A DNA stretch of 64,000 nt, taken from NCBI GenBank assembly GCA_902765215.1, contig CACWZA010000003.1:1-64000 (forward strand), given 5' to 3'. Shown piece by piece: positions 47,765-64,000 of the stretch. Source of the stretch: an uncultured bacterium (GTDB lineage: Bacteria; Cyanobacteriota; Vampirovibrionia; Gastranaerophilales; Gastranaerophilaceae). Each line of letters begins with the position of its first letter. Within the stretch, counting starts at the first letter, position 1. Position numbers and translations under genes: made by a program. The notes under the pieces are model-generated. The model ran no database searches, was not told the origin of the DNA, and was given only the letters and a program-made list of their open reading frames with translations.

Positions 47765-47780
47765 AACACTTAGTTTTACT
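47765..47780. repeat. Outer 16-bp inverted repeat, left
   Basis: AACACTTAGTTTTACT, exact reverse complement of 55936-55951. A related direct copy with one change lies at about 56062. Confidence 0.65.
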
Positions 47781-47862
47781 TCTCTTAACAGTTAGTATGA
47801 CTTCTTTTCCATAAATGATTTTAAAATTTTTCAATAATGTTCAGATTAATATCAAAAAAAAT

Positions 47863-47878
47863 CTGTCAATTCCTGTAC
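47863..47878. repeat. Inner 16-bp inverted repeat, left
   Basis: CTGTCAATTCCTGTAC, exact reverse complement of 55872-55887. Together with the outer pair it forms nested ends, but the sequence between the two blocks differs in length (82 against 48 bases). Confidence 0.65.
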
Positions 47879-47968
47879 TAAATTCTGTCAAAGATTTAAG
47901 TCATAATTTTTTATTTAGATACAGCTGTCATTCTTCAGCTAACTTAGGATTGATTTTAAATAATTGTT

Positions 47969-48655
47969 TTAAACTTTAACATCCCATGATGAAATACTTC
48001 CACTATTTGGCAAACCTGCTTCGTATTTTTCTTCAATTTGTTTAATAATACTATCTATATCAGTACCATAAACTTTTAATTCAAATTCTTCTAATTTATT
48101 ATCATAAGAACCGTCTTTTATTTTTTCAACAAGTTCATTGTATTTTTCTTTGTTTCTTTCTCTTAATTCTTCTAATTTTTCTTCCCATTCTTCTCTTTTC
48201 TCTTTTTGTTCTGCCTTTTTGCTTTCTGGATTTTCTTTTGCAATTTTTCCATCAGGGTCGTTTGTACTACCGCTTACACAAGAAAAATTGCCGTTAGCAT
48301 CAACCGAAAAATTTGCATAAGTTACCACAGGACTTCCCGGAGCCATAGCAACTTTGCTTTTCAAAAGCTCTATACTAATAGGAATGGCTTCTAGATTTTC
48401 TTCTAGCTTTTGTGCCTGTTCAGGGTCATTTGCACATTTTGCTAAATATTTACTAGAAATTGATACTGTTGTTGGCACACCTGACATTGAAGTTGTTTTA
48501 CCAAGAAAACTAAACTTATCCATTAAAGTCTTTTTGTATTCATCAACACTTACTTTTTTAGGTGTTTCATTTCTAGTATTTTCAGTTTTATTTTCAGACA
48601 AATTAAGTTCTGTTTTTATATAATTACTTTGGTCAGTATTAATTTCTAAAGCCAT
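47969..48655 (-). CDS. Hypothetical protein resembling DUF6033
   Basis: A 228-residue soluble, charged protein. TVSISSKYLAKCANDPEQAQ followed by KLEENLEAIP recalls a segment shared by DUF6033-like proteins of gut Firmicutes, but I am not certain of it. A coiled coil follows (EQKEKREEWEEKLEELRERN). There is no signal peptide. It ends 200 bases from the tandem tRNA-end repeat and shares orientation with the efflux operon. The function is unknown. Confidence 0.55.
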   Translation of the reverse strand: MALEINTDQSNYIKTELNLSENKTENTRNETPKKVSVDEYKKTLMDKFSFLGKTTSMSGVPTTVSISSKYLAKCANDPEQAQKLEENLEAIPISIELLKSKVAMAPGSPVVTYANFSVDANGNFSCVSGSTNDPDGKIAKENPESKKAEQKEKREEWEEKLEELRERNKEKYNELVEKIKDGSYDNKLEEFELKVYGTDIDSIIKQIEEKYEAGLPNSGSISSWDVKV

Positions 48656-48797
48656 AATTTACTTCGATTAATTTAATTATCCTTGTATGTTATAGTAATT
48701 GTAATGCCCGATTTCTGTCATTAAACTATAAATCCTCTTGGTGACTAATAACATCATATCTCTATTTAATCTATTTTTCAACCCTTCTATATAGCCT

Positions 48798-48974
48798 TTA
48801 GGCTTCTGCCTCAATATTTCCTTCTGTTTTTAAAGAATCATCTGATTCGTTTTCATCTAATCCGTATTCTTTAATTATATCTTTTATATCGTTTTTGGAT
48901 TCATTTTCTTTATGTTTAGCACAGTAGTCGTTATATTCTTTATATGTAACAACTTTATCTTTGTTTGTATCCAC
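48798..48974 (-). pseudogene. C-terminal fragment of an EF-hand protein gene
   Basis: An open frame of 58 codons whose first residues, DTNKDKVVTYKE, form a complete EF-hand calcium loop, followed by an acidic helical tail ending NIEAEA. It has no ribosome binding site. The coding similarity stops exactly where the 61-bp direct repeat begins (48974), beyond which the frame meets TAG. It therefore looks like the 3' remainder of a gene broken by a rearrangement. The rest of 48656-49159 has no gene. Confidence 0.6.
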
Positions 48975-49034
48975 CCTATAAACACTAAACTTGGAAAAAA
49001 AGTAAAACTAGGAAAAAAAGTAAAAACGGTCATT
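48974..49034. repeat. Perfect 61-bp direct repeat, left copy
   Basis: Identical to 56097-56157. It contains AAACTTGGAAAAAAAG followed by TAAAACTAGGAAAAAAAG, a short internal duplication. The two copies enclose the whole efflux operon, the transposase remnant, the 306-residue gene and HU. Confidence 0.9.
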
Positions 49035-49041
49035 TGTAAAA

Positions 49042-49085
49042 GGTCACATGGTGTGATTATTTAGGTCAGATGGATTGACTATTTC
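49042..49085. repeat. Two adjacent 22-bp imperfect direct repeats
   Basis: 49042-49063 and 49064-49085 agree at 17 of 22 positions (GGTCA[C/G]ATGG start). They directly follow the 61-bp repeat. Twenty-two bases is the size of a Mu-type transposase binding site, but no other copy was found by eye. Confidence 0.55.
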
Positions 49086-49159
49086 AGGCAAAAAACATTC
49101 TTGTTTTAAAATAAATTTAGTTGAATTGTACAAAAATATTTACAATTTCAATGTTATTT

Positions 49160-50359
49160 TTATTCTATTTCAGATTTTATTTTCTTCATTGTATAGCAAG
49201 CGGCTACAAAATATAGGCAGCATAAACCTAATAATATCCAAAAATCTTTTTGAACTTGACAAAAACTTGCACCCATTTGATTTATTTTTACGAGTCCGTC
49301 TGCGGCAGTTTCAAACGGAATAAATTTTGATAGGACATTCAATACTGTGGGGATTGATTCTTTCGGCCAAACAAACCCGGGTAAAAATATTAAAGGTACA
49401 GACGATACTATCATTATAAAAAATGAAATTTCACGTTTTTTGCAGAAATATACTAAACTTATTCCTAAAAAAGCACTTGCAAACAAAAACGGAACCAGTA
49501 TCAAAAACATCGGGATAAGATTATATGTCATATCATAAGTTACAAGCGTAGGGAATATCAGGAAAAATATCAGCGCATAAATGAAATACAATAAAACATA
49601 GGCTAAACTTTTTCCTATAACAATTTCAATAGGATTATTTGAATAAGGATTGATTGCGTTGAGTTTTGTAAGTTTCCAGTTTCCGTTTTCTCCTCTTTCT
49701 TTAAATCCGCTAATTCGTTCACGCAAAGTTGCATTGAGCATACTAACCCCAATTAACATTGTTTGCTGCAAAATCATAATCAAAATCAAGGGATAAATAT
49801 AGTTTTGATAACTTCCAATCGGATTATAAAGCGGATTTTGGACAAATTCTACAGGATTTACCAGAGATTTTGCAACTTCTTTCGGGGTCCCTTTTTTCAT
49901 CAATGTTCCGACTTCAATTTTCGCTCCGGTTTCACCCGCAACAGTTGCAACTGCTGTTGCAATATTTTTGTATATTATTAAATATGCACTATCAGTATAA
50001 GACGATACAAAAGACGGATTTCCGCGTTTTATATCCCGCTCAAAATCTTTAGGTATAAGTACAAACGCTCTAATCTTATTTTTGTAATACTCCGATTTTG
50101 CGTCTTCAATATCTTTTGGGGTTTCAATTACTTCAATATACTCGGTCGCATTCAAATCCCGGATAAACTTCTGAGATAAAGAAGTATTATCGTTATCAAC
50201 GACCCCAATTGGAACATTTCTTAGAGCATTGTTAGCAAATGGTATCGTATAAAAAAGACTGTACAGAAAAATTGCTCCGACCATAATCAAGCTACTGCCG
50301 GGGTCTTTAAATATTTCAACAAATTCATTTTTTAAAATTTTTATTATATCTGATACCAT
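49160..50359 (-). CDS. ABC-2-type permease (YhhJ/YbhR-like), second of two
   Basis: A 399-residue membrane protein of the ABC2_membrane_3 type: one N-terminal helix, a periplasmic domain of about 150 residues (IGVVDNDNTSLSQKFIRDL), then five helices, ending with FLPGFVWPKESIPTVLNVLS, the W/P-rich loop typical of this family. It overlaps the preceding permease gene by 16 bases. With its partner it should form the inner-membrane part of a drug or lipid exporter, but no ATP-binding gene lies beside it. Weak hairpin TTGAAATTGT/ACAATTCAA follows near 49131-49160. Confidence 0.88.
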   Translation of the reverse strand: MVSDIIKILKNEFVEIFKDPGSSLIMVGAIFLYSLFYTIPFANNALRNVPIGVVDNDNTSLSQKFIRDLNATEYIEVIETPKDIEDAKSEYYKNKIRAFVLIPKDFERDIKRGNPSFVSSYTDSAYLIIYKNIATAVATVAGETGAKIEVGTLMKKGTPKEVAKSLVNPVEFVQNPLYNPIGSYQNYIYPLILIMILQQTMLIGVSMLNATLRERISGFKERGENGNWKLTKLNAINPYSNNPIEIVIGKSLAYVLLYFIYALIFFLIFPTLVTYDMTYNLIPMFLILVPFLFASAFLGISLVYFCKKREISFFIMIVSSVPLIFLPGFVWPKESIPTVLNVLSKFIPFETAADGLVKINQMGASFCQVQKDFWILLGLCCLYFVAACYTMKKIKSEIE

Positions 50360-51510
50360 AAATCCTCGTTATTAGCGTGTTTTTTTAATAGAGGTACAAA
50401 CATTGTACCCAGTAATCCTATTGCCATTATCCAAAATAAATATATTAAATCATATTTTAGCATAAATCCTTTCATCGCTTGATCAATAAGCAGGTTTACA
50501 TAAGGTCTTACCGGTAATAATGAACTGTAAAACCTTGTAAACAAAGGCATTCCCATGTTAGGGAAAGTCATTCCTGCAAGGCTAAAACCTAAAGATGTAT
50601 AAAATGCGCCGACACTCATTGCAAAACGTAAGTTTGAAAGTACTGCAACAAAAGCCAAACCCATAAGTTGATAAGCTAAAAGAAAAATGCCACTTGAAAA
50701 AATTGTAAATAAAATATTCCCCTCAAACGGAGCACCATAAATTATTACATAGCCACCATAGACAATAAACATTTGTATCAAAAGTACAATAAGATATACT
50801 GAAAGTTTACCAAAAGCTGCGCTAATTATTGAATTATCAGCCTCTTTTAGCCATTCTTTTGTTGTTCCCTCTTTAAATTCAATACCAAGTGTCCAAACTG
50901 CAAGTAATACCGCAAAAATTTGGAACACATGTGCAACAGCTGCGTAAGATAAAAAGTATGAGTAGTTCAAATAAGGATTTGATTTGATTTTTTCATCAAC
51001 TCTTATCAAATTTATTTTAGAAAGTGTCGGATCTTTTGCTAGTCCTTTTTTCATTCGTATTTGCGCATCAACGGATTTTGTTAATGTCATAACAGTACTT
51101 TGTATATCTTTTGTAATAATACTTCCGATTAAAATCATTTGATTATTGTAATAGTAAACAATTTGCGGAGTATTATTTCTGTTTAAATCTTTTTTGAAAT
51201 CTTTAGGATAAACAATAATTGCATAGACTTTACCTTCTTTTATCAAGTCGTATCCTTGATTATAATTCTCAACTTTATAACGAACTTTAGCAGATGGCGT
51301 TGAATCAATTGCCCTTGTTATTGTTCTTGTAATATCACTGTTATCTAAATCCAGAACCGCAATCGGTAAGTTTTTAGGAATTCCTGCGCTAAATGTCCAA
51401 ATTACAACAATCGAAAAAACTATCGGTGCAATAAACAACATCACCATTAAAAATTTATTGGATTTAATCTTTGATATTTCACGTTTTATGGTGTTAATAA
51501 ACCTGTTCAT
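50344..51510 (-). CDS. ABC-2-type permease (YhhJ/YbhS-like), first of two
   Basis: A 388-residue membrane protein with the same plan: N-terminal helix (FLMVMLFIAPIVFSIVVIW), periplasmic domain with IAVLDLDNSDITRTITRAID, then five helices and FSLAGMTFPNMGMPLFTRFY. It is a paralogue of the downstream permease, as in YbhS/YbhR. It begins 3 bases after the HlyD-type gene stop. Confidence 0.88.
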   Translation of the reverse strand: MNRFINTIKREISKIKSNKFLMVMLFIAPIVFSIVVIWTFSAGIPKNLPIAVLDLDNSDITRTITRAIDSTPSAKVRYKVENYNQGYDLIKEGKVYAIIVYPKDFKKDLNRNNTPQIVYYYNNQMILIGSIITKDIQSTVMTLTKSVDAQIRMKKGLAKDPTLSKINLIRVDEKIKSNPYLNYSYFLSYAAVAHVFQIFAVLLAVWTLGIEFKEGTTKEWLKEADNSIISAAFGKLSVYLIVLLIQMFIVYGGYVIIYGAPFEGNILFTIFSSGIFLLAYQLMGLAFVAVLSNLRFAMSVGAFYTSLGFSLAGMTFPNMGMPLFTRFYSSLLPVRPYVNLLIDQAMKGFMLKYDLIYLFWIMAIGLLGTMFVPLLKKHANNEDLWYQI

Positions 51511-51513
51511 AAA

Positions 51514-52491
51514 CTATTTGCCTATTTTGTTGTAATCCGTTATAACACTCATTCCAGCCCTTAAATCAGGATTTTTTTCAAGCGGTTTTGCATGAATTTC
51601 AAAAGTTTTCAAATCAAAATCCCCACGAATTTTTGTTGCCCGCCATGTTGCAAAATTTCCCATTGCAGAGATAAAATTAACTTTTACTTTTATCGGTTTT
51701 TTACCTAATGCCGGAACTGTAGCATCAAAAACCGTTCCCATCTTGAATTTTGGCAATAAATCTTCTCGTAAATTAAACACAACCCAATTATCATCTGTAT
51801 CAACGACTGTAATAATCGTATATCCGCTGCCGACAAGTTCGCCTTCTTCAACAGAAATTTCCGTTACCTGTCCTGAAATTGGAGAAATAATTTTATTCTC
51901 ATCTAAGTATGATTGAACTTCAATATTTGAACCTTGAGCTTGTTTTACACCCGCTGAGGCAATAAGTTTATCTTCATATCTTGAACCGTTTTCAAGCATT
52001 TGATAGTTATTTTGTGCAATCAAAACAGCCTGTTTTGCATTGTTGAATTGAGTATAAGCCTCATCTGCTTTTTGGTTTGAAATAACACCTTCTTTGTTTA
52101 AGTTATGTAATCTGTTATATGTTTTTTGTGCAAGTTTCAGGTCCGATTGAGCCTTGTGCAGAGCATTCAATGCCATTGCTTTTTGCTCGTTCCTTGCTCC
52201 GTTTAAAACTTCCAATCGCTTAGATTCTGCAAGCTCTAAAGCCGCATTTGCCTGAACCTTTTTAGCTTCAATATCAGGAGTATCAAGCGTAATCAAAACC
52301 TGCCCCGCCTTAACCGTGTCACCTTCTTTTACATTGATTGTTTTTACCCGACCTGTAATTTTTGAGGATAAATCAACACTTTTTGTATCAACTTCTCCTT
52401 GAATAATCAATTGATGGTTCTTTTTGACAACAACAACTGTTAAACAGGTCATTAAAATTATTCCAATTATAATAAGTGCATATTTTTTCAT
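51514..52491 (-). CDS. HlyD-family periplasmic adaptor
   Basis: A 325-residue membrane-fusion protein: N-terminal anchor (YALIIIGIILMTCLTVVVV), lipoyl half-motif GRVKTINVKEGDTVKAGQVL, a helical hairpin (about residues 75-180), the second lipoyl half ISPISGQVTEISVEEGELVG and a beta-barrel domain. It couples the permeases to the TolC-like channel, and lies 3 bases from both neighbours. Confidence 0.92.
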   Translation of the reverse strand: MKKYALIIIGIILMTCLTVVVVKKNHQLIIQGEVDTKSVDLSSKITGRVKTINVKEGDTVKAGQVLITLDTPDIEAKKVQANAALELAESKRLEVLNGARNEQKAMALNALHKAQSDLKLAQKTYNRLHNLNKEGVISNQKADEAYTQFNNAKQAVLIAQNNYQMLENGSRYEDKLIASAGVKQAQGSNIEVQSYLDENKIISPISGQVTEISVEEGELVGSGYTIITVVDTDDNWVVFNLREDLLPKFKMGTVFDATVPALGKKPIKVKVNFISAMGNFATWRATKIRGDFDLKTFEIHAKPLEKNPDLRAGMSVITDYNKIGK

Positions 52492-52494
52492 ATT

Positions 52495-53877
52495 CTATAA
52501 TTTCTCCTCTGTGGAATTTTTTATATATTCTAAAATTTCATCACTGTGACCAATATTTGATAAGATTTCAGCCAGTTTTAAGTCATAATTATAAAGTGCG
52601 CTTAATCTTTGAATTTTTATCCCCGCAAGAGTTGTTTTAGCATCAATTACGCTTAATGATGTGCCGTAACCCTCTTTAAAAGCTAACATTGCACATCTCA
52701 AAGATTCTTTAGCGCTTTCTATTGATTTATCAGTACTTTCGTATTGCTCTTTAAATTTTTGAAGTTCATTATAGTTTTTTACAACAAGACTTTCAACATC
52801 GTTTTTTGCGGCAATTGTGGCATATTTAACTTCTTGCCTTGTAGCATCTGCAGCTTTTAAGTCGTTATATCTTGAAAATCCGTCGAATAACAATAAATTC
52901 ACCACCGCACCGACTCCGAATCTCGGCAACTGGGTTGCTAAATTGCTTTGAGCAGCAACATCATAAGCAAATAATGACACTGTTGGAGAATAATTTGCAA
53001 CATTTGCCCTGTAATTTGCCTGTGCCAACCTCTTTTGAACCTCAGTTTGTTTAAAATTCGGGTTGTTTTTAATTGCCTCTTGTTTTAATTCTTCAAGAGT
53101 TGGCAACTCTTTATTTGTTATAAAAAGTCCTGAATGCGGTGTTATTGAAACATTTGCCAAATCAATATCATCAGCTTTTATAAGATTTTTTAACCCCTCT
53201 TCAATAATTGATACATCCTTTAGAGAAGTTTCATAATCTTTTTTGGCTTGCCTGTATGCAACTTCAGCGTGTAATCTTTCTGATTTTGGGATTAAGCCCT
53301 CTTTTTCCATTTTCTTGGCATCATCAAGATGTTCTTCTGTGGTATCAAGCACATTTTTTCTAACTTCAACTACATCAAGTGCAAATTTAAGCCCGTAATA
53401 ATTTTGGATTAATTTTGTAGTTAAATCACTTGATAAAGCTTGATATTTCAAATCCGCACCCAATAATTCCGCACGAGCTTTAGAGTTTAGAGCAAGAATT
53501 TTCCCACCAGTGAATATATTCCAAACAGCATTAAATCCAAATACTCCCAGATTTTTGTCTTGAATAGTTAAATTCGGAATAGCAACATTTGAACCATTCA
53601 AATTAATTGAAGACACTTCGGTTTTAATATCATTATCAAAATGAACAAATGTGGCATTCATCCCTATTTTAGGCAAAAACTCACCCATTGCGGAATTCTT
53701 TTTGTATTTTTTTGCCTTAACGTCTTCAATCATAGCCTTAATAGAATTATTGTTGTTAAACATTAGCTCATACGCTGTCGGGAAGTCAATATCGTAAGAT
53801 TCAGCAACTTTATTAGAAGCCAATGCAGTATTTATTGTGAGAAGAGTGATAATCAGGGATAAAAGAATCTTTTTCAT
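52495..53877 (-). CDS. TolC-family outer-membrane channel
   Basis: A 460-residue protein with signal peptide KKILLSLIITLLTINTALA, two OEP repeats with long helices (FKQTEVQKRLAQANYRANVA) and beta-strand pairs that form the outer-membrane barrel. First gene of the four-gene efflux operon TolC-HlyD-permease-permease, which is preceded by a repeat-rich operator-like region. Confidence 0.92.
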   Translation of the reverse strand: MKKILLSLIITLLTINTALASNKVAESYDIDFPTAYELMFNNNNSIKAMIEDVKAKKYKKNSAMGEFLPKIGMNATFVHFDNDIKTEVSSINLNGSNVAIPNLTIQDKNLGVFGFNAVWNIFTGGKILALNSKARAELLGADLKYQALSSDLTTKLIQNYYGLKFALDVVEVRKNVLDTTEEHLDDAKKMEKEGLIPKSERLHAEVAYRQAKKDYETSLKDVSIIEEGLKNLIKADDIDLANVSITPHSGLFITNKELPTLEELKQEAIKNNPNFKQTEVQKRLAQANYRANVANYSPTVSLFAYDVAAQSNLATQLPRFGVGAVVNLLLFDGFSRYNDLKAADATRQEVKYATIAAKNDVESLVVKNYNELQKFKEQYESTDKSIESAKESLRCAMLAFKEGYGTSLSVIDAKTTLAGIKIQRLSALYNYDLKLAEILSNIGHSDEILEYIKNSTEEKL

Positions 53878-53895
53878 AGAAATACCTCAAACTTT

Positions 53896-53933
53896 ATATG
53901 TTGACATAACTACACGTTGACATCATAACATAT
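53896..53933 (-). promoter_or_regulatory. Operator-like repeats upstream of the efflux operon
   Basis: An inverted repeat ATATGTT (53896-53902) / AACATAT (53927-53933) encloses two direct copies of GTTGACAT (53900-53907 and 53916-53923), 19-56 bases before the TolC gene. This arrangement fits a repressor site; no repressor gene is adjacent. Confidence 0.5.
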
Positions 53934-54317
53934 ATAATTTATAATGCAAGATGAGGATAAGGAATTATGAAAAATTTTAAATCTAATCATTATATTGATA
54001 CAACAATATATAATTAATGCTAAAACAATATTTGTTCTAAAATTAGCAGTAATTTTAGCATTATCCGAAACAAATTGCGGTGGCTTATAATTCAATGGAA
54101 CAAGTGCTGTAGATTTCTTTTCATTCTTTCTTAATTTATTCTGAAGTTCAGGTTCTAAACTTGTAAATAATATTTCATAAGAAGTTCCACCGTTAACAGT
54201 AACTTCTCTTGATATATATTTGCTTTCAGTTTTATTAAGCTCCAAACGGAGCGAACGGGTACTTTTTAATCCCTTTGCTTCAGCTACATCTTTTATATTT
54301 ATATATATATTATTCAT
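53910..54317 (-). pseudogene. N-terminal remnant of a Mu-type transposase (MuA-like DNA-binding domain)
   Basis: The first 90 or so residues (NIYINIKDVAEAKGLKSTRS, then KYISREVTVNGGTSYEI and SLEPELQNKLRKNEK) match the N-terminal winged-helix domain of Mu-like transposases, which binds the element ends. After about residue 95 (NAKITANFR) the sequence turns into hydrophobic and Cys-rich translation of AT-rich DNA, and the last codons are the operator-like repeats of the efflux operon. The DDE catalytic domain (about 400 residues expected) is missing. The gene is thus a fragment of a formerly complete transposase. Confidence 0.7.
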
Positions 54318-54406
54318 GGCACAAAAACATTACCTCTGAAGTCAAAGGATTGGAACACCGCTTCCGACCATTGTGTCTGTTTTGAAACAAACTTTAGCAG
54401 TTAACC

Positions 54407-55327
54407 TTATGCACTTACATTAACGGATGAAATATTAGATACTTCCGCCCAAGAAATTGCATTTGCTTTCTTTTGGAAATATGTGTGCAAATCTTCGTAT
54501 TTTATAGTTAATGCGGATTTATATTTATCGCCATACTTATCTTCATAGTGATTAAAATCAACCCAACCAATTTCCTCTTGCCCTCTTATATAATCTTCTT
54601 GAGTTTTATTGCTTTCCTGAATAGTTTGTTCTAATTGTTTCATAAAACTATCAAGTATCCTTTGAAGCTGAATGATGCCCTCTGCATCAATTTCATCACC
54701 CTGATATTCACCAATTAATATCTTTGCAGCTTCATATTTATCTGCTTCATTTTCTGCAAACATTACTTTATTACTGTAATTACTTAAAGAATCAGCATTT
54801 GAACCGTTTATAATTTTACTTGCAATTATTGCACTTTCTTCCGAACCATATATGGGAGTAAGCGTATTTCTGAGTGTATTCATACACGCAAACTTTAGTT
54901 GAGACATACTTGTATAACAAGTTTCATTTAATGCCTTTAATTCTTCAACATCTTTGCATTCTCTTGATTCCAAATATTTATTAAATTCGCTATCTATATC
55001 AACATCTTTTAGTAATCGTCTGTATTCTATGTTCTTATTAATATCATTTGAGGAATGGAGTATTAATCTTGTTTCAAGCCATTCACCAAAATCTTCTTTT
55101 GAATTTGCTTTCAATAGAGGTGAATTAATCATTTTGTTTAAATCATTACAAAAATCATCTTTAATTGATGCTTTTTCTTCATCTGTTAAAATTCTATAAC
55201 TGTCAGTATTAGATGCAATTACATCAACACCGAAATCAATATCAGGATTATCTTGTTTAATTTTATTGGATGTTAATAATAATTCAGTACAATAACTTTG
55301 AAATGACTGGTTGATGCCTAAAACCAT
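54407..55327 (-). CDS. Hypothetical 306-residue protein of the accessory segment
   Basis: Unrecognised. A soluble, acidic, mostly helical protein without signal peptide. The middle has a helical stretch around ESAIIASKIINGSNADSLSN and a Gln/Glu-rich segment (MKQLEQTIQESNKTQEDYI). It is preceded by an AT-rich gap and followed by the transposase remnant. It could be a cargo or effector-like protein; nothing in the sequence decides this. Confidence 0.55.
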   Translation of the reverse strand: MVLGINQSFQSYCTELLLTSNKIKQDNPDIDFGVDVIASNTDSYRILTDEEKASIKDDFCNDLNKMINSPLLKANSKEDFGEWLETRLILHSSNDINKNIEYRRLLKDVDIDSEFNKYLESRECKDVEELKALNETCYTSMSQLKFACMNTLRNTLTPIYGSEESAIIASKIINGSNADSLSNYSNKVMFAENEADKYEAAKILIGEYQGDEIDAEGIIQLQRILDSFMKQLEQTIQESNKTQEDYIRGQEEIGWVDFNHYEDKYGDKYKSALTIKYEDLHTYFQKKANAISWAEVSNISSVNVSA

Positions 55328-55425
55328 ATAATTCTACCCATAGTCTGACTAATAATAAGATATAAGATTTTTATAATTTCATCATCATTTATTTAAATCA
55401 TGTTTTGATTATTTTGTGTAATATA

Positions 55426-55459
55426 AAACCATCGAAGAATTTATTTTCCTCGATGGTTT
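55426..55459 (-). terminator. Terminator-like hairpin after HU
   Basis: A perfect 10-bp stem AAACCATCGA / TCGATGGTTT with a 14-base loop, 33 bases past the HU stop. The U-run is short. Confidence 0.6.
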
Positions 55460-55491
55460 ATGGCTTTACTTTTAAAACTCTACTTATTCAA

Positions 55492-55767
55492 TTACTTTTT
55501 AACCATTTCTTTGAATGCTTTACCGGCAGAAAAAGCAGGAACTTTTTTAGCAGGAATCTTAATAGCTTTGCCTGTTTGTGGATTTCTTCCTGTGCGAGCT
55601 GCTCTTTCTCTTCTTTCAAAAGTACCAAAGCCAACTAATGTAACTTTGTTTCCTTTTTTAACTGATGCTTGAATTGCATCAATTGTAGCTGATAAAACTT
55701 CACCTGTTGCTTTTTTGCTTAATTTAGTCTTTTTAGCAACTTCTGTAATAAGTTCTTCTCTGTTCAT
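55492..55767 (-). CDS. hup: HU-type DNA-binding protein
   Basis: A 91-residue histone-like protein: NREELITEVAKKTKLSKKAT, VTLVGFGTFERRERAARTGR and NPQTGKAIKIPAKKVPAFSA, which is the DNA-bending arm with its Pro. Start ATG 55767 has GGAGGAG upstream; the frame runs 9 codons further without a signal. HU is normally a core gene, but here it lies within the repeat-bounded segment and next to a Mu-type transposase remnant. HU assists Mu transposition in E. coli, so the link is worth noting but may be chance. Confidence 0.93.
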   Translation of the reverse strand: MNREELITEVAKKTKLSKKATGEVLSATIDAIQASVKKGNKVTLVGFGTFERRERAARTGRNPQTGKAIKIPAKKVPAFSAGKAFKEMVKK

Positions 55768-55871
55768 AATCTCCTCCTTAATTAATATCAACACTTTTGG
55801 GAAAGTTTTAAATATTATAATATATATTTAAGCATGTGGCATAATTATTTATTTTTTTAACTAAAAATTTT

Positions 55872-55887
55872 GTACAGGAATTGACAG
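55872..55887. repeat. Inner 16-bp inverted repeat, right
   Basis: GTACAGGAATTGACAG, exact reverse complement of 47863-47878. Confidence 0.65.
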
Positions 55888-55935
55888 CAATTTTTGACAA
55901 AAATCAAAATTCTCAAAGTGGACTTTTAGGTTTTG

Positions 55936-55951
55936 AGTAAAACTAAGTGTT
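55936..55951. repeat. Outer 16-bp inverted repeat, right
   Basis: AGTAAAACTAAGTGTT, exact reverse complement of 47765-47780. Followed by AAATCGCC repeated twice. Confidence 0.65.
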
Positions 55952-56096
55952 AAATCGCCTAAAATCGCCAAAAATCAGAAATAACAATGCAAAACACCCA
56001 CATGGAAAAAAAATACTACTTGGAAAACAGTCCGCAAAAAGAGTGATTTAGTCCATGAATTTAACACTTAGTCTTACTCCTTCCGACCCCTGAAAC

Positions 56097-56157
56097 CCCT
56101 ATAAACACTAAACTTGGAAAAAAAGTAAAACTAGGAAAAAAAGTAAAAACGGTCATT
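56097..56157. repeat. Perfect 61-bp direct repeat, right copy
   Basis: Identical to 48974-49034. It directly abuts the 105-bp repeat at 56163-56267. Confidence 0.9.
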
Positions 56158-56162
56158 AAAAT

Positions 56163-56267
56163 ACAAAAAGGTTATAATAAGGTTCAAATCCAGCATTCTG
56201 AACAAAAAAAAAGATTTTCAACCACCGTTGAAAATCTTTTCTAGTTTAAATGGTTGCGGGAGCTGGA
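56163..56267. repeat. Right copy of the 102-105-bp direct repeat with tRNA-end and terminator
   Basis: Contains the 14-bp hairpin at 56209-56240, which on the minus strand serves as the terminator of the tRNA at 56251-56295. GGTTCAAATCCAGC (56181-56194) and its reverse complement (56262-56275) flank the hairpin, an additional 14-bp inverted repeat of the tRNA T-arm. Confidence 0.8.
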
Positions 56268-56295
56268 TTTGAACCAACGACCTTCGGGTTATGAG
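56251..56295 (-). other. 3' half of an initiator tRNA (tRNA-fMet), integration scar
   Basis: On the minus strand the 45 bases begin with the anticodon loop CTCATAA (anticodon CAU), continue with the 3' side of the anticodon stem CCCGA, the variable region, T-arm GTTGG-TTCAAAT-CCAGC, acceptor strand TCCCGCA and ACCA. Upstream the sequence does not complete the D-arm or the 5' anticodon stem, so the 5' half is absent. A tRNA 3' half starting at the anticodon loop is the usual core of a tyrosine-recombinase attachment site. Confidence 0.8.
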
Positions 56296-56297
56296 TC

Positions 56298-56690
56298 TAT
56301 AAAAGCCCTATTTGCAGGGGTTTTCACTCGTAACCATAATTTATCAGAATTTATCACAAATAATTACACCACATGAGTTTCAGCCAAATTTTTATTCGCA
56401 TTTTTTATCAGAGCTTTTCAGAATTTTCCAGAATTTTTGCAACTTTTTTGCAACCGGGGTAAAGGGGTAAATGAAATTTGTCTGACATAAAATTACAAAC
56501 TTTTTGTGTGGAGTTTCCTCCTTTATATCTGTCCACTCAACGCCACTTTTAAGGGGCGGGGAGGGGACAAAAACATAAATAGCCACCCTCATTCTGAGCC
56601 ACAAAAAAATTCCGTAAATTTTAGGAAAAATATAAATCGCTAACTTTTGCAACAAAAAGCTTACGGGCGATTCTTACACGATATAATTTT
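56298..56690. other. Island edge without a convincing gene, possible recombinase arm sites
   Basis: 393 bases with repeated short strings: AATTTATC twice, CAGAATTT several times and TTTTGCAAC three times. Repeats of this kind beside a tRNA scar fit arm-type binding sites of an integrase or excisionase. A leftward frame at 56392-56655 has no start signal and is not called. Confidence 0.4.
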
Positions 56691-56711
56691 GTGAGAATAA
56701 GGGGATTTGTT

Positions 56712-56900
56712 ATGGAAAGAAAAATTATACGAAATAGAATTAAATGTAAACATTGCGGTGATATAATAGAATCAATAAATGTACACGATTTTAAATTTTG
56801 CTCTTGCGGTAAGGTCGCAATAGATGGCGGTAAATGCTACTTAAAACGAACCGGCAACCCAAACGATTGGGAAGAATTTAGCGAGTTCAATACAGTTTAA
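56712..56900 (+). CDS. Small zinc-ribbon-like protein
   Basis: A 62-residue protein. RIKCKHCGDIIES and FKFCSCGKVAIDGGK give a C-x2-C...C-x-C pattern of a zinc ribbon. Such short proteins (DUF7695-like) are frequent in phages and islands. ATG 56712 with AAGGGG upstream is preferred over an earlier start. Convergent with the ATPase remnant, 5 bases apart. Confidence 0.65.
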   Translation: MERKIIRNRIKCKHCGDIIESINVHDFKFCSCGKVAIDGGKCYLKRTGNPNDWEEFSEFNTV

Positions 56901-56905
56901 AAAAA

Positions 56906-57995
56906 TTAGTTAAAGTTTCTCAAAAACGTTGATATTTCTATTGGAATTTCTGTTTTTTTGAATTCTTGAGCAATGGCTTGATCTGAAAAAGATATTCCAT
57001 ATTCATTTTGTATTTTTTCGCGTAACTTAGATAAGACATCTTTACCGGGAGCGAACAAAAGTTTATTTTCTAAAGTATTCCAATTGTCCTCCGTAATACT
57101 TCTTGCAATCTTATTTGTTGTTGAAATTTCAAGAGAGCAATCATGCTTTTTAATTTGAGTTGATAAGTTATCTATAATATCAGTTTTTAAGTCATCTAAA
57201 ATCTTATTTAAAATATTCTCTAAATCACTTTTTGAAAGATTATATTCATTTGCATTAATTAGTCTTAAAAGTACATCAGTGTTTAATAAATAATTTTCTA
57301 TTTCTTTTGCTTTCCAAATGTGTACATTAATATTCTTTTTCTCTGCTGTCTTAATAAATTCTTGATTATCATCAATAGAATAGTCCCTATCAAATAAACA
57401 ATAAATTTTTATGCTATTGCCACAACTAGCATTTACAAATTCTTCTGCCCATAAAACTTTATTACGGGCACTTTTGCCTTGAGTTTTAAAACAAGGGATA
57501 TCTGCAAATTTTGAATTCTTATATAAAGTTTTATAAAATATTCTTAATATTTTTGCATCATTACCTTCAACAAATATACATTTTTTAGCACTTGCAAACT
57601 TTATCAGTTCAATATTTGCGGATAAACCAATGTCATCAATTATTTTTTGAACTCCTGGTACATTTTTAGCATATCCAGATACTGATTTTGATTTTTCAAC
57701 AATTAAAATATCATTTGGATTGGTATTTACTATAAATTCGAGAGAATGTGTTGCTAATATGATTTGTTTTCCGGTTCCATCTAACAAATAATGCAAACGT
57801 CTTTGCAAATCAGCATGAAGATATACATCAGGTTCATCTATAATTAAGCTTGTTGCATCTTTGTTGCAAATTAAAAACCAAAGTATTTGTAGATTTACCA
57901 GCATTATTTTTCCCCACAAGTAACACATTTTTGTGAAAGGTTATTCTATGCTTTTTAAATCCTCTATAATTTTGTATTTCAATTTGTTTTATCAT
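56906..57995 (-). pseudogene. OLD-like AAA ATPase/TOPRIM nuclease, internally deleted and out of frame
   Basis: From ATG 57995 the first frame reads MIKQIEIQNYRGFKKHRITF and reaches Walker A VGKNNAGKST, then stops 16 codons later. A second frame (57928-56906) contains Walker B SLIIDEPDVYLHADL, ATHSLEF and a TOPRIM domain (KKCIFVEGNDAKIL, LFDRDYS). Only about 17 residues separate Walker A from Walker B instead of the 150-200 expected, and the frame changes between them. A deletion has removed the middle of the ATPase. It follows the methylase by 12 bases and was probably part of the same defence locus. Confidence 0.75.
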
Positions 57996-58007
57996 TGTAA
58001 ATTATAA

Positions 58008-59264
58008 TTATGCTATTGCGTACTCTTGAACAGAATCTGTATAATCCATTATACTCAACATTCTTGAACCCATTCTTTCAATCAAAGGCACTACAAGAGC
58101 ATTGCCCATAACAAAGTATCTAAACTTTTCCGGCATTCCTGTATCAGTCCAACCGTCTTTGAATCCGTTAAGTCTTTCACATTCTGTTGGAGTTAATAAT
58201 CTTAAATGTTGTGATAATTTATCAATAATAACATGTGTACTTCTATTCAAAGAAGATTCGCTTGTAAGCATTGTTCTACTTGGCAAATCCATTCTATCAG
58301 GGAAAGACATAGAACCTTCTGTATAGTAATATATTTCTCCGTTGGGGCGCCTTCTTTCTTCACGCTTAGCACCTTTCAAATATTGCCATTTTTCTGTACT
58401 GCCATTCAAGAAAAATCTCTTATCAACGACACCGTCTTCACAGATTTCGTTTAATGTCTTCGGCGTCTGCATTATTGGTGTTGTTTCCATTGTGTATGCT
58501 TTCCCATTTACACAAACACCTGAATTACTAAACCTTGCAGCAAATTTGTCAGAGAATACATCAAGAGTCTTGTATTTATCCTGTGAAATTGTATAAATTT
58601 CCATATTGTTGATACTTAAATTTGTGTTATCAATTAAGAACTCTCCGGCAAAGAATCCGTTTTTAGTTATGATATTAAACTTATCTTCATTTGCTAAGTG
58701 ATTATAAAAATCAGTTGATTCATTTACCGCAAATATGAATGTTCTACGGCGTCTCTGTGCACAGCCATATTCAGCCGCATTTATAACACGCCATTCTATT
58801 GCGTAACCTAGGTCAGATAAACATCTTAAAATTATTCCAAAATCTCTCCCCCTTTGTTTTGCAGGAGATTTTAATAAGCGATCCACATTTTCAAGCAAAA
58901 TATATTTAGGTCTTTTGGCTTCTACAATATCTCTAATATCCCACCACAGAGCACCTTTTTTGCCCTGAATACCTTTTGCACCTGTTCTTGCAACAGAGTA
59001 ATCCTGACATGGAAAACCACCAACAAGTAAGTCATGCTCAGGTATTTGGTCTTTAACTAATGCTATATCTTCATTTATACAATTATGATTTTTACCAAAA
59101 TTTTTAGCATAGCAATCATATGCATATTGAGATTTTCTTCCCGGTTCCCATTGATTAGCCCAAATTGTTTCAAACAAATCAGAGCTTCTTTCAAGGCCTA
59201 CCCTGAAACCTCCTACACCGGCGAATAATTCAACTACTCTTATTTTCTTCCCACGACTTAACAT
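58008..59264 (-). CDS. C5-cytosine DNA methyltransferase of the Sau3AI-type system
   Basis: A 418-residue enzyme. Motif I VVELFAGVGGFRVGLE, catalytic loop GGFPCQDYS (Cys86), motif VI LLENVDRLL, motif VIII QRRRRTFIFAV, and late RLLTPTECERLNGF with VMGNALVVPLI. It starts 51 bases from the divergently transcribed endonuclease gene. By that partnership it should methylate the C of GATC. Confidence 0.9.
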   Translation of the reverse strand: MLSRGKKIRVVELFAGVGGFRVGLERSSDLFETIWANQWEPGRKSQYAYDCYAKNFGKNHNCINEDIALVKDQIPEHDLLVGGFPCQDYSVARTGAKGIQGKKGALWWDIRDIVEAKRPKYILLENVDRLLKSPAKQRGRDFGIILRCLSDLGYAIEWRVINAAEYGCAQRRRRTFIFAVNESTDFYNHLANEDKFNIITKNGFFAGEFLIDNTNLSINNMEIYTISQDKYKTLDVFSDKFAARFSNSGVCVNGKAYTMETTPIMQTPKTLNEICEDGVVDKRFFLNGSTEKWQYLKGAKREERRRPNGEIYYYTEGSMSFPDRMDLPSRTMLTSESSLNRSTHVIIDKLSQHLRLLTPTECERLNGFKDGWTDTGMPEKFRYFVMGNALVVPLIERMGSRMLSIMDYTDSVQEYAIA

Positions 59265-59315
59265 TCTTGTATTACTCCATTATTATGTTACCATAAAATT
59301 AACGGGGTGGGAACT

Positions 59316-60674
59316 ATGCAAGAAAAACGTTACAATTCAAAAGCGGAATTATTAAAAAGGTCTAAAGAAGCTATTAACATTCCTTTTGGTCAAATTGACA
59401 CGACAGGAAGACTTGGAACTGCTAAAAATAAAGGTAACGTTGGACAAATGTTTGAGGAATGTTGGTTTGAAAGAAAAGTCAACAGTCGAGCAGAAGCCGA
59501 TTTTAATGAATTAGGCGTTGAATTAAAAGTTACCCCATGTGTTAAAAACAAATCAAATAAATATGTAGCAAAAGAAAGGCTTGTATTAAATATAATTGAC
59601 TATATGACAGAAGTTAATAAATCTTTTGAAGATAGCAGCTTTTGGCATAAGAATAAAACACTTTTATTGATGTACTATGAATATTTCAAAGATGTACCCG
59701 TTACTGATTTTAAAATATTAGAAACTCTTTTATATGAATATCCTGAAAAAGATTTAATTGTTATTAAACAGGATTGGGAAAAAATTGTTCAAAAAATAAA
59801 AGAAGGTAAAGCTCATGAATTATCAGAAGGAGACACACTTTATCTTGGAGCTTGCCGTAAAGGCGCAGGCGGAGAAAAAGATTTAAGACTACAACCTTTT
59901 AATACTATCAAAGCTAATCAAAGAGCATACTCTCTTAAACAATCTTACATGACATATATTCTGAATAATTATGTTTTAAACCAAGAAAAAGAAGAATCAA
60001 TTATTGATAATGAAACACAGCTTGAAAAACAAGGTTTTGAAAATTATATTATCAACAAAATCAAACCATATTTCGGTAAATCACAAAAGGAATTAATCAA
60101 AGAATTTAAATTGAATCCTGCAATGAAAAATGTTAATGAAAGAATTATCGCTTCTATTTTGGGTATAAAAGGAAATATTGCAGCGACAGAAGAATTTACG
60201 AAAGCAAATATTGTTCCTAAAACGATACGAATTGAGTATGGAGACAAGAAAATCAAAGAAAGTATGTCTTTCCCGACTTTTAAATTTACTGAAATAATTA
60301 AAGAAGAATGGGAAGACTCATTTATGTATAACCTGTTTTCTTCTACAAAATTTATGTTTATCATATTTAAGTTTGATAAAAATAACGAATTATACTTAGA
60401 TAATGTAAAATTTTGGAACATGCCGGTAGCTGACATTGAAGAAGTCCATAAAGTTTGGGCTGAAACAGTTAAGGTAATTAAAGATGGTGTTAAAATAATA
60501 AACAAAAACGGACGTGATTTTAATAATTTGCCGGGACAAACTTTTAATAAGGTAAGTCATGTAAGACCACACGGGCAAAATAAAGCTGATACTTACAAAC
60601 TCCCCGATGGCAGAGAATTAACAAAACAATGCTTTTGGTTGAATAATAAGTATGTATTGGAACAAGTATTGTAA
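59316..60674 (+). CDS. Sau3AI-family type II restriction endonuclease
   Basis: A 452-residue enzyme of the MutH/Sau3AI fold. The N-terminal domain holds D62, E69 and K71 in ADFNELGVELKVT, the same spacing as D70/E77/K79 of MutH, so the catalytic site looks intact. The C-terminal half (about 260-452) is the second, non-catalytic MutH-like domain that binds another site, as in Sau3AI. Start ATG 59316 with GGGGTGGG upstream. Predicted target GATC, blocked by the neighbouring methylase. Confidence 0.9.
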   Translation: MQEKRYNSKAELLKRSKEAINIPFGQIDTTGRLGTAKNKGNVGQMFEECWFERKVNSRAEADFNELGVELKVTPCVKNKSNKYVAKERLVLNIIDYMTEVNKSFEDSSFWHKNKTLLLMYYEYFKDVPVTDFKILETLLYEYPEKDLIVIKQDWEKIVQKIKEGKAHELSEGDTLYLGACRKGAGGEKDLRLQPFNTIKANQRAYSLKQSYMTYILNNYVLNQEKEESIIDNETQLEKQGFENYIINKIKPYFGKSQKELIKEFKLNPAMKNVNERIIASILGIKGNIAATEEFTKANIVPKTIRIEYGDKKIKESMSFPTFKFTEIIKEEWEDSFMYNLFSSTKFMFIIFKFDKNNELYLDNVKFWNMPVADIEEVHKVWAETVKVIKDGVKIINKNGRDFNNLPGQTFNKVSHVRPHGQNKADTYKLPDGRELTKQCFWLNNKYVLEQVL

Positions 60675-60675
60675 T

Positions 60676-61554
60676 TTAGTGATTTAGCTCTTTTCCATAA
60701 ATTAATTTTTCCAAATTTATATTTGCTTGTTTCATTTTTCTTACATATGGTATTATTTGTTTATTGTCAAAATTAATAGTATCATTTAAAAGAACCCTTA
60801 AAAATAATGTTGTTTTAATAAAGAAATGAAACATATAAGTTGCTTCTTGTTTATTAAATTCAATTTTTCTATTCCAATCCATGAAGCAGCCGTGTGCAAT
60901 TTGTGAGCTGTCATTATAAAAGCCATAAACAATATCTTTTAAAGAAAATTCTTCCTTATCGTCTTTTATTTTAAAATCAATCCTATCTAATTCTTCATAC
61001 ATATCTTTATATTTGAAAAATACCGGTCTAAATTTTTTAGTAAAATATTTATCAATTTTTTCATAGTTTATATCTGATATAACAAAATCGTCAATTCCTA
61101 TTGCTTTCAATAGTTTAGTTTTAGCAGAATCTGTAATAATATCAAAATTCTTTTTTATTTCCTGTACGGCTTCTACTTTTGTTCCTGTTCTGCCATTTTC
61201 ATCTATTACTTCTCCATCACGTAACATTTTATATGTAATAAACATATTTTTGACTTTTAATATTTGAGATTCATCTAAATAATCATTTATTTTATCTTGA
61301 AATTTTGAAAGGTATGTCACTAAAATAACGGTTTCTGTTGCACTTCTCAATAATATTTTAGCTTCATTTATTTGTCCTTCTTTAATTAAAATATTTGCAG
61401 AATAAGCATTAGAAATAATCTTTTGTATGAGTGCATACAATGCAATTAATTCCTTTGTATCATATTTAAGCAAATTTATAATTGCATTAAAACAAAGGAG
61501 TAAATCATTCATTTCATTATAAAAAGCTATATTATCAATTAAGTTATCATTCAT
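60676..61554 (-). CDS. Hypothetical protein, DUF5677-like
   Basis: A 292-residue helical protein. AKILLRSATETVILVTYLSK and, near the C-terminus, YNDSSQIAHGCFMDW recall the R-S/A-x-x-E and H-G motifs of DUF5677-like proteins, which occur near defence genes. It ends one base after the restriction gene stop, convergently. No catalytic fold is known to me. The start could also be TTG 61581. Confidence 0.6.
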   Translation of the reverse strand: MNDNLIDNIAFYNEMNDLLLCFNAIINLLKYDTKELIALYALIQKIISNAYSANILIKEGQINEAKILLRSATETVILVTYLSKFQDKINDYLDESQILKVKNMFITYKMLRDGEVIDENGRTGTKVEAVQEIKKNFDIITDSAKTKLLKAIGIDDFVISDINYEKIDKYFTKKFRPVFFKYKDMYEELDRIDFKIKDDKEEFSLKDIVYGFYNDSSQIAHGCFMDWNRKIEFNKQEATYMFHFFIKTTLFLRVLLNDTINFDNKQIIPYVRKMKQANINLEKLIYGKELNH

Positions 61555-61656
61555 AGAATAATTATATACTAACTTTTGCAAAAGTTTTATACTACTTACT
61601 TATATGTAAATGCTTTCTCGATAAAATTGTTTTTATGCAATTTTAAAGGAGGAAGA

Positions 61657-61872
61657 ATGGTAGAAGTTAAAAATGAAGAACAGGAAGAAACAATGCGAGA
61701 GGTTGGACACCTTTTATTAGAGGTTAAGTGTTTGGCAAGGTTAGGGGCTTTGGCTTCTGATTCGTGTATTATTGATGATGAGTTACAACTACAGGACAAT
61801 ATAGAATATTATTTTGCATTAAAGCAAGTAGCAAACCTTATTCGCAAAATTGAACGTTTACTCTTTGATTAA
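61657..61872 (+). CDS. Small acidic protein with GALASDS core, copy 1
   Basis: A 71-residue acidic protein. Its middle, ARLGALASDSCIIDDELQLQ, is repeated in the small protein at 62016. No family recognised. AAAGGAGGAAGA is a strong ribosome binding site for ATG 61657. No signal peptide or membrane segment. Confidence 0.6.
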   Translation: MVEVKNEEQEETMREVGHLLLEVKCLARLGALASDSCIIDDELQLQDNIEYYFALKQVANLIRKIERLLFD

Positions 61873-62015
61873 GCTCTAATATTTGTACTTATATTTTATT
61901 ACTTATATTTTCTTCTCATAAAAATAAACTGGGTGCACAAAATAATCGAGACACCGTAAAATGATTCTATAAAACAGCTAGTTATAAACGTATAAACACA
62001 AAGGAGCAAAATTTT

Positions 62016-62189
62016 ATGTGTGAAAATAGCGAAATCAACCGGCTCAAAAATAGTATCATAAACGCAAGAATGATTTTATACGACTTGCAAGTGTTCTTGA
62101 AGTACGGCGCCCTTGCAAGTGATTCTAATATTATTGATGATGATTTACAGTTAAACAAAAGCAATGACGATTATTACATATATTTATAG
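62016..62189 (+). CDS. Small protein with GALASDS core, copy 2 (57 residues)
   Basis: Open frame from ATG 62016 (AAGGAG at 62001-62006) to TAG 62187-62189. LKYGALASDSNIIDDDLQLN aligns with copy 1 at 61657, including YY near the end. The stop overlaps the convergent XRE gene by 6 bases. It is shorter at its C-terminus than copy 1. A recent tandem duplication followed by divergence is likely. Confidence 0.6.
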   Translation: MCENSEINRLKNSIINARMILYDLQVFLKYGALASDSNIIDDDLQLNKSNDDYYIYL

Positions 62190-62387
62190 ATTAGAAGGTT
62201 TAACATTTAAAGCACGCGCAATTTTGAACACATTTTCAACAGTTGTATTTCTTTCACCGCGCTCTATCATACCAATAAAATTAGGGGACATATCAAGAAT
62301 TTCAGCAAGTTCAAGTTGTGTTAGATTATGGTCTAACCTTAAAGCCTTCAAGTGTTTACCAAATTTTTGTAAATCCTTTTTACTCAT
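62184..62387 (-). CDS. XRE-family helix-turn-helix regulator
   Basis: A 67-residue Cro/CI-like repressor: FGKHLKALRLDHNLTQLELA followed by EILDMSPNFIGMIERGERNT and the C-terminal helix VFKIARALNVKPSNL. One compact HTH domain, no sensor domain. It probably controls the divergent rightward genes starting at 62501 or the small protein genes on its left. Confidence 0.88.
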   Translation of the reverse strand: MSKKDLQKFGKHLKALRLDHNLTQLELAEILDMSPNFIGMIERGERNTTVENVFKIARALNVKPSNL

Positions 62388-62500
62388 TTCTACATTTTCG
62401 TGTTAATATACACATATATAAATAAACTGACCGTGCGTTTTATTCTCAAAAATGGTTAGTGTGTAAGGATAACAAGACTAAAACTAGGAGAAGTTTACAA

Positions 62501-62782
62501 ATGAAAAAATTATTTATTTTGTTACTAATGATTACAAGTTGCAGCATGGTCTTTGCGGAAGATTTTACAGACAGAATGTTGAGAGAACAAAGAGAATCAT
62601 TTAACAGAACTATGGAATATAATCAAATGGTTAACCAAAATCAAAGATTATATGAAATAAAACAGCAAATGGAACAGCAAAATTCTTATAGACCAACTTA
62701 TTACAGCAACGACAGCTATCAAAGACCAACTTATGTACAAGATAAACCTTTATATAAGTTTGGAAGTAGTTCAGAATTATAA
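62501..62782 (+). CDS. Small exported protein
   Basis: A 93-residue protein with signal peptide KKLFILLLMITSCSMVFA. The mature part is Gln-, Asn- and Tyr-rich (MEYNQMVNQNQRLYEIKQQM) without Cys. ATG 62501 has AGGAG upstream. Followed 22 bases later by the membrane protein gene. Function unknown. Confidence 0.65.
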   Translation: MKKLFILLLMITSCSMVFAEDFTDRMLREQRESFNRTMEYNQMVNQNQRLYEIKQQMEQQNSYRPTYYSNDSYQRPTYVQDKPLYKFGSSSEL

Positions 62783-62804
62783 ATAAACTAAAAAGGTAGG
62801 TAAA

Positions 62805-63869
62805 ATGTACGAATTTATGGAATTTCTCGGAAATTTTTGCGGGGTAATATTAGACCCTATCAATATAGTTTTACTAATTATCTTAGTAATATTCTTCAAA
62901 AGTAAAAGAACAAAACAAAGAGGATTCTTTAAAAATTTAGGAATAATTTTTCTCATTGGTTTTGGAATAAGATTATTATTTTTACCCATAAATATTCATG
63001 CTTCTTCAATGGATTACAGGTATTTTGGAGCAGATACCGCCTTTTTTATTTTATTTTCTAATGCAGTATTTGCAGCACTTATTTATCTTTTTTATTATTT
63101 TTCAAAAATTTTCTTTTATGTCAATATGACGCCAAAGGAAACAAGGGAATATGAAACTAAGAAAAAAAATATTACACTAATTAAAAATTTGGTAGAACGA
63201 TATGAAAATGCTAAGGATTTTGAATGTGCTGATTTTTTATACAGACTTATGATGTTTAGGGATAATAATTATAATTCTATTCAAATTCAAGCATTTTTAA
63301 ACCCTGATGAAAATATTAACTTAATTAAAAGTGCTTTATTAAGTAGTTTGTACAAAAAAATAAAACTACAAAAACTGATAAATCCACAAAATTACACGGC
63401 ACTGGTTTGGTATTATACTTTAAAATCTTATATTGCAGGGGACAATAAAGAACTTATGTATAATTTATGGAAAAATTTAAACCGTGGTTTTGAACTGGCA
63501 AAATCTAAATATATACAAGATAGCAGTAAAAAATTTAATTTTGATAATAGCGGATTTTATCAAATACCTAAAGGAATAGAAGAAAATAAATCTATTAACA
63601 AATTGGATAATAAAACGAATACACTTGTTAAAGATTCAAATAATATAATTGAATTGATAAATTCTAAACTTGAAATAATGAAAGAAAATAATAAAAATTT
63701 AAAAGATAATACTTTTTTAGCTATATGCTATGTGTATGAAGATTTAATACAAGAAGGAAATGAGCAGGATATAAAAAATCTAATAGCTTGTGTGCAAGAA
63801 AACTATCCGGATTTATACGATGACATAATAACGCATATTGCATTAAAATATTCCGGAACTAATTATTAA
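62805..63869 (+). CDS. Membrane protein with long cytoplasmic helical domain
   Basis: A 354-residue protein with three or four membrane segments in the first 120 residues (NIVLLIILVIFF, NLGIIFLIGFGIRLLFL, FFILFSNAVFAALIYLFYYF), then about 230 residues of soluble, Lys- and Asn-rich helices. It lies between two small exported protein genes in one orientation. No family recognised; it is a candidate transducer or anchor for the exported partners. Confidence 0.6.
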   Translation: MYEFMEFLGNFCGVILDPINIVLLIILVIFFKSKRTKQRGFFKNLGIIFLIGFGIRLLFLPINIHASSMDYRYFGADTAFFILFSNAVFAALIYLFYYFSKIFFYVNMTPKETREYETKKKNITLIKNLVERYENAKDFECADFLYRLMMFRDNNYNSIQIQAFLNPDENINLIKSALLSSLYKKIKLQKLINPQNYTALVWYYTLKSYIAGDNKELMYNLWKNLNRGFELAKSKYIQDSSKKFNFDNSGFYQIPKGIEENKSINKLDNKTNTLVKDSNNIIELINSKLEIMKENNKNLKDNTFLAICYVYEDLIQEGNEQDIKNLIACVQENYPDLYDDIITHIALKYSGTNY

Positions 63870-63886
63870 AATTAAGGGACAATAAT

Positions 63887-64000
63887 ATGAAAAAAATACT
63901 GACAATTTTATTTGCACTTATTTTTTGCACAGGGAGCGCCTTTGCAAAAGACTTAACTATGCACAACACATTGCAAATAAATACGGATTCAGAATTATTA
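63887..64000 (+). CDS. Start of an exported protein (partial)
   Basis: ATG 63887 with AAGGGAC upstream opens a frame to the window edge. It begins with a signal peptide, KKILTILFALIFCTGSAFA, then KDLTMHNTLQINTD. The rest lies outside. Confidence 0.7.
   Translation, partial: MKKILTILFALIFCTGSAFAKDLTMHNTLQINTDSELL

Follow-up and report, generated by a model that had tools for sequence, protein, structure and literature searches.

A 14.6-kb integrative element and a displaced initiator tRNA 3' half in a Gastranaerophilales genome

The closest described systems are genomic islands that tyrosine integrases insert into tRNA or tmRNA genes. The Islander survey (Hudson et al. 2015, PMC4383910), which counts anticodon-centred sites among its sublocations, lists 2083 islands of that type, 3760 that have a 3' fragment and only 159 with 5' fragments. 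The locus described here shares with Islander-class islands a displaced 3' tDNA fragment, restoration of the tRNA at the integrase end and an anticodon-centred site; nothing fundamental differs, the target here being the initiator tRNA. PICIs and other phage satellites resemble the island in size, in the combination of integrase, excisionase-like protein, primase/helicase and regulator, and in interchangeable defence genes, but differ in that packaging or capsid-modifying genes were not recognised in the island. Outside the island, at 47.5-47.8 kb, lie repeat units that recall Escherichia coli tyrT, whose 178-bp repeats each include roughly the final 19 nt of tRNA-Tyr. Both consist of tandem tRNA 3' ends behind an intact tRNA; unlike the tyrT repeats, each unit here includes an inverted T-arm plus a hairpin, and such units were seen not only at tRNA-fMet, in several genera, but also at tRNA-Leu. 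A literature search returned no study of mobile elements in Gastranaerophilales, and we did not find the element family, or this order as an island host, described.

The displaced tRNA-fMet half and the ends of the island

We analyzed a window of 64,000 nucleotides that forms the start of contig C3 (189,633 bp) of an uncultured, gut-type Gastranaerophilales bacterium (G000). A first-pass annotation had claimed that its minus strand carries the 3' half of tRNA-fMet lacking the 5' half and followed by a terminator, and each part of this claim was borne out. The minus strand of positions 56251-56295 reads CTCATAACCCGAAGGTCGTTGGTTCAAATCCAGCTCCCGCAACCA, identical at 45/45 positions to nucleotides 33-77 (of 77) of the intact tRNA-Met(CAT) of the genome; it spans the molecule from the anticodon loop, whose seven nucleotides (CTCATAA) are its first bases, to CCA. 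Given that ARAGORN found zero tRNAs across the whole 64-kb window, no 5' half lies beside it. The half is followed by a terminator-like hairpin with a T-run (GATTTTCAACcaccGTTGAAAATC; 56205-56240, minus strand), the intrinsic terminator that belongs to the displaced 3' half and pre-dates the island; the same hairpin recurs at 47548 and 47673. Searching the whole assembly with the 45-nt half returned position 56251-56295, the intact gene and shorter terminator/3'-end copies at 47547-47734 only, and the anticodon-to-CCA copies found are thus the displaced half and the intact tRNA-fMet gene alone. In a genome of 2.15 Mb, 45 nt would not match exactly by chance.

From the polarity of the half, the island had been placed to the right of 56.3 kb, with an intact tRNA-fMet and an integrase beyond 64 kb, and both were found there. 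The tRNA-fMet gene lies at contig 70896-70972, on the same strand as the displaced half and with the same last 45 nt, and beside it, 0.84 kb inside this end, a complete tyrosine recombinase of 371 aa is encoded (contig 68944-70059). The longest stretch over which the two ends agree exactly is a 51-bp direct repeat (56245-56295, minus strand, with its partner at contig 70890-70940), within which the displaced half constitutes the attL core (56251-56295, minus strand; 45/45 identity to contig 70896-70940). The element thus delimited spans contig 56296-70940, 14,645 bp. Its left 7.7 kb (56296-64000), defined by the attL/attR pair and by a right flank that is island-free in genus-mates, is in the window and the remainder extends to contig 70940. 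The attL inner arm (56296-56454) is conserved in sister elements, with homologues in 53 of 288 family genomes; it is 90% identical in G108 and 81% in G051, adjoining fMet halves in both. It contains TTTTTGCAACTTTTTTGCAACC, which is also present in the attR arm (contig 70814-70835) and which is probably an integrase arm-type site.

Joining both flanks in silico yields a perfect tRNA-fMet with the displaced terminator, as expected of the empty site. Where the tRNA is intact, its 3' half comes from the element, as does a new terminator. The comparison with island-free genomes, suggested by the first-pass annotation, agreed at the level of the genus: three genus-mates (G004, G001 and G005) carry an intact tRNA-fMet beside the right-flank genes of the island, which encode a 142-aa protein, a 271-aa protein and RsmI, are common to all three and are 39-82% identical, and the island is absent. 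None of the genus-mates has the integrase at E <= 1e-100, and the left flank in G004 holds genes different from those of the source genome. From the genus-mates and the in silico join together we infer the empty site, a comparison made at genus level. Neither a complete tRNA over 56251-56295 nor the half with its flanks in relatives without the right-hand genes was seen.

Could the half instead be a pseudogene that arose by local duplication of the tRNA 3' end, with ordinary chromosomal genes to its right? Tandem copies of the tRNA 3' end do adjoin at 47.5-47.8 kb and occur downstream of tRNA-fMet elsewhere as well, but these copies start in the T-stem/T-loop, after the hairpin of the unit, whereas the start of the displaced half coincides with that of the anticodon loop, where it meets a conserved arm of the element. 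Moreover, the pairing of half, intact tRNA and integrase recurs in many genomes and this integrase is absent from the genus-mates, all of which makes duplication extremely improbable. In an assembly of 47 contigs, the 51-bp repeat could in principle have caused a misjoin; the same junction was found in independent assemblies. The locus shows the features of a tRNA-gene integrative element, namely a displaced 3' fragment, an intact tRNA, a complete integrase between them, an empty site (at genus level) and horizontal spread. We conclude that a 14,645-bp integrative element almost certainly entered the tRNA-fMet gene via site-specific recombination at the anticodon loop, displacing the 3' half. 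The scar is a textbook tRNA-island scar, and the earlier inference is correct in every testable particular.

On this reading, integration took the following course. The tyrosine recombinase exchanged strands within the 7-nt anticodon loop, using an attP composed of the left arm, the copy of the tRNA 3' half and the right arm. The 3' half and terminator that had belonged to the host gene were shifted to the left end, as attL (window 56251-56295), and those of the element completed the gene at the right end, as attR (contig 70896-70972), so that the cell retained a functional initiator tRNA. Exchange within the loop suggests itself naturally because the block of identity begins at the first base of the loop. 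We infer the exact crossover position, the present activity of the element and its route of transfer from cell to cell. The excised circle (attP junction) had no match in IMG/VR. Beyond the island, an AdoCbl-II (B12) riboswitch scored just above the gathering threshold (locus L008, 14457-14530; contig 78457-78530).

Cargo, relatives and type of the element

Exploring the island from left to right, we found genes for a small DUF7695 protein (56691-56900, plus strand; PF24749, E 3.7e-27), an AAA/Toprim-like protein that resembles ATPase/nucleases of AriAB/OLD defence (56906-57928, minus strand; PF13304; PADLOC AriAB, E 4e-23), a C5-cytosine DNA methyltransferase that partners the Sau3AI-type enzyme (58008-59264, minus strand; PF00145, TIGR00675), a Sau3AI-family type II restriction endonuclease (59307-60674, plus strand; NF040973 equivalog, 562.6 bits with a cut-off of 300), a DUF5677 protein (60676-61581, minus strand; PF18928), an XRE/Cro-type regulator (62184-62387, minus strand; PF01381) and small exported/membrane proteins. 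There follow the neighbours of the integrase, a 979-aa primase/helicase (phrog_239) and a 55-aa excisionase-like protein (phrog_66), then the tyrosine recombinase itself and an uncharacterised 255-aa protein. The integrase (phrog_1) matches PF00589 (E 9e-30), PF14659 and, weakly, an Arm domain; Arm, SAM-like and catalytic domains are all present. A change in gene content at 56.3 kb had also been claimed, and it holds for the island genes on the right; as a simple border between host and island it does not stand, because the left flank is itself layered, carrying tRNA 3'-end units and a Mu-like relic (47.5-56.2 kb). Within small ORFs of the island, a 56-nt stretch occurs twice (61758-61813 and 62120-62175, 71% alike). 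The 98-aa ORF that holds the first copy (61576-61872) has a near-identical counterpart in the G108 element, suggesting that a backbone gene was duplicated here.

Two genomes of other genera carry close relatives of the element. In G108 the integrase is 97%, the left arm 90% and the right arm 96% identical; in G136 a 98% identical integrase lies 1.5 kb from tRNA-fMet, and the cargo is equally close (methyltransferase 98%, Sau3AI-type endonuclease 97%, AAA protein 99.7%). A household protein near the G000 site is only 65% (G108) and 77% (G136) identical, and given this disparity with integrases of 97-98% identity, the element moves horizontally. Next to attL, G108 has a different methyltransferase and a 695-aa protein that by eye is GHKL-type ATPase-like, indicating that the cargo next to attL is interchangeable. 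The Sau3AI-type pair was also seen, in islands or beside tRNA-fMet, at 97-98% identity in locus L231 (contig C27 of G136), at 94-97% in L233 (contig C30 of G082) and at 72% in L041 (contig C1 of G027, a genome of another family, where it likewise adjoins tRNA-fMet). Several elements are stacked in tandem at the tRNA-fMet gene in G108, where another integrase, unrelated to the first, and a third half of the tRNA lie behind the element, making two islands in one gene. In this stack (loci L223 and L224, contig C5 of G108) the restored 3' half of the newest element shares the variants CCGGAGG and CCCCC with the oldest displaced half, and it pairs with the host 5' half while the middle half does not; a matching of element and host tRNA halves is possible there.

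By which route such an element would spread can be weighed from its genes. It might be a phage satellite of the PICI kind, carried in helper-phage capsids: its length of 14.6 kb and its set of integrase, excisionase-like protein, XRE regulator and primase/helicase matching phrog_239 would suit one, and its defence cargo varies between sister elements, as phage satellites are known to differ in theirs. However, neither Pfam nor PHROGs recognised a gene for a terminase, a capsid, packaging or capsid size, several island proteins matching nothing, and no close relative of the integrase was found in IMG/VR; against phage records nearly all matches of the integrase were below 60% identity, at about 30% among the matches listed. 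We therefore regard a satellite as possible, on balance doubtful. An integrative mobilizable element using a conjugative machine supplied in trans would agree with the modular backbone and with the Arm-binding and SAM-like domains of the integrase, which are common to many integrative elements. Yet the island proteins scanned included zero recognised relaxases, nor was a type IV secretion system, which a self-conjugative element would also carry, recognised among them, and we consider this route unlikely.

The anticodon-loop cut and the change of integrase target

The displaced halves in G013, G018, G031, G014 and G017 start at the same CTCATAA as that of the source genome; the G017 half has point changes at later positions. 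When GTDB genomes were scanned with a pattern for fMet halves, at least 117 loci in many phyla were returned; among the matches listed, the CTCATAA cut was found in 80 of 80 loci, none of which overlaps an ARAGORN tRNA. A clear orthologue of the integrase is present in 26 of 288 family genomes, distributed over 15 genera. In a maximum-likelihood tree the G000 integrase falls in a clade of 14 sequences (support 100/100), of which ten are flanked by tRNA-fMet (in G121 by its 3' half) and an eleventh, in G146, is accompanied by a displaced fMet half at the opposite end; for the remaining members the sequence ends before a tRNA or no tRNA-fMet is in view. Seven mapped integrases outside the clade, 50-69% identical to that of G000, adjoin tRNA-Arg(TCT) instead; the displaced halves of these elements are cut at CTTCTAA and their left arms are partly similar. 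The simplest reading is one change of target, from tRNA-Arg(TCT) to tRNA-fMet, at the base of the clade. The more remote integrase of G031 (39%) also lies between a displaced fMet half and tRNA-fMet, and use of fMet thus probably arose more than once. A mirror-image island was seen at locus L044 (contig C41 of G019; 5997-6073, 7124-7145, 12987-14057 and 14316-14354), where it is the 5' half of tRNA-fMet that has been displaced; a new 5' half, together with what appears to be a promoter, comes from the element, and an integrase lies at that end.

Repeat units and a transposon relic outside the island

The left flank of the island holds three copies of a gene-free unit that runs from the tRNA-fMet 3' end through a terminator, an inverted T-arm (GCTGGATTTGAACC) and a linker to a hairpin. 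Two copies lie in tandem at 47547-47763 (minus strand; repeat families D1/D4), spaced by 125 bp, and units behind tRNA-fMet in other genomes share their anatomy. The outer part of the third (56163-56267, minus strand), 96-98% identical to 47635-47734, carries the displaced half, and the inverted T-arm copy GGTTCAAATCCAGC at 56166-56205, in the outer flank, belongs to the repeat unit whose tandem copies lie at 47547-47763; it falls inside the coordinates of the first-pass annotation (56163-56295) but had gone unmentioned there. The copy closest to the tRNA is interrupted by about 8.4 kb (47764-56162) holding an ABC exporter operon, a DUF6033 protein, an HU-like gene and a truncated transposase-like ORF (53910-54317) that shares about 50% identity with the N-terminal part of a Mu-like transposase of G017. 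The segment also has a perfect direct repeat of 61 bp (48974-49034 and 56097-56157), and GGAAAAAAAGTAAAACT-like motifs are repeated near both borders of the insert, which would fit transposon ends. The segment looks like a Mu/Tn7-like transposon relic inside the repeat unit. Similar transposase ORFs were seen near tRNA-fMet in G017 and on the contig of the island in G191. A second tyrosine-recombinase island at 47.7-56.2 kb was considered and rejected, the left border showing no anticodon-loop half and the segment no integrase.

Arrays directly behind an intact tRNA-fMet were also found in G082, with four units of about 100 bp and, closing the array, a degenerate tRNA 3' end whose terminator is of a different type, and in G048, with three units of 158 bp. 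A strict pattern, in which the fMet 3' end is repeated at 95-125 bp, matched 13 of 383 genomes of the order (the source genome and 12 others, nine genera) and zero in a reversed control. There are at least two sequence classes of units, one of which shares CTTATACAGGCTCA...TTCGCTTTGTAAAATCC across several genera. In G259 and G217 the units lie behind tRNA-Leu(TAG), with a hairpin close to that of G000 (GTTTCAAGC...GCTCAAAAC) and arms matching tRNA-Leu(TAG). Rfam recognised tRNAs only in the window and in the repeat units, the hairpin core had no match in IMG/VR, and an earlier description was not found in the literature. The units were rejected as integron attC sites since by eye their termini are GTTT...AAAC and not RYYYAAC...GTTRRRY.

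Tentatively, and at somewhat below even odds, we read the units as integrative elements without genes, about 100-160 bp long, which insert into tRNA genes at the T-loop and seem not to have been described as a class. With each of them would come a new 3' end for the tRNA, in most cases a terminator, a T-arm inverted in part, and a hairpin core; units would accumulate in tandem behind tRNA-fMet, and a related core with target-matched arms would do so behind tRNA-Leu(TAG), as a miniature, non-autonomous counterpart of tRNA-targeting islands that is mobilised in trans. Alternatively, they may be copies of the tRNA 3' end that a replication or template-switch process made locally, and the target-matched arms fit both explanations.

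Together, the data provide a mobile element mapped at both ends at the initiator tRNA of Gastranaerophilales, an event well known in kind, and with it a usable set of integrase, attP and attB. What goes beyond the ordinary is the probable single target switch, in which one integrase clade would have passed from tRNA-Arg(TCT) to tRNA-fMet and kept the anticodon-loop cut, the restriction-modification cargo, whose Sau3AI-type system travels as defence genes between genera on the island, and the T-loop mini-units, which would extend the elements that target tRNA genes by a miniature class, provided that they are indeed mobile.
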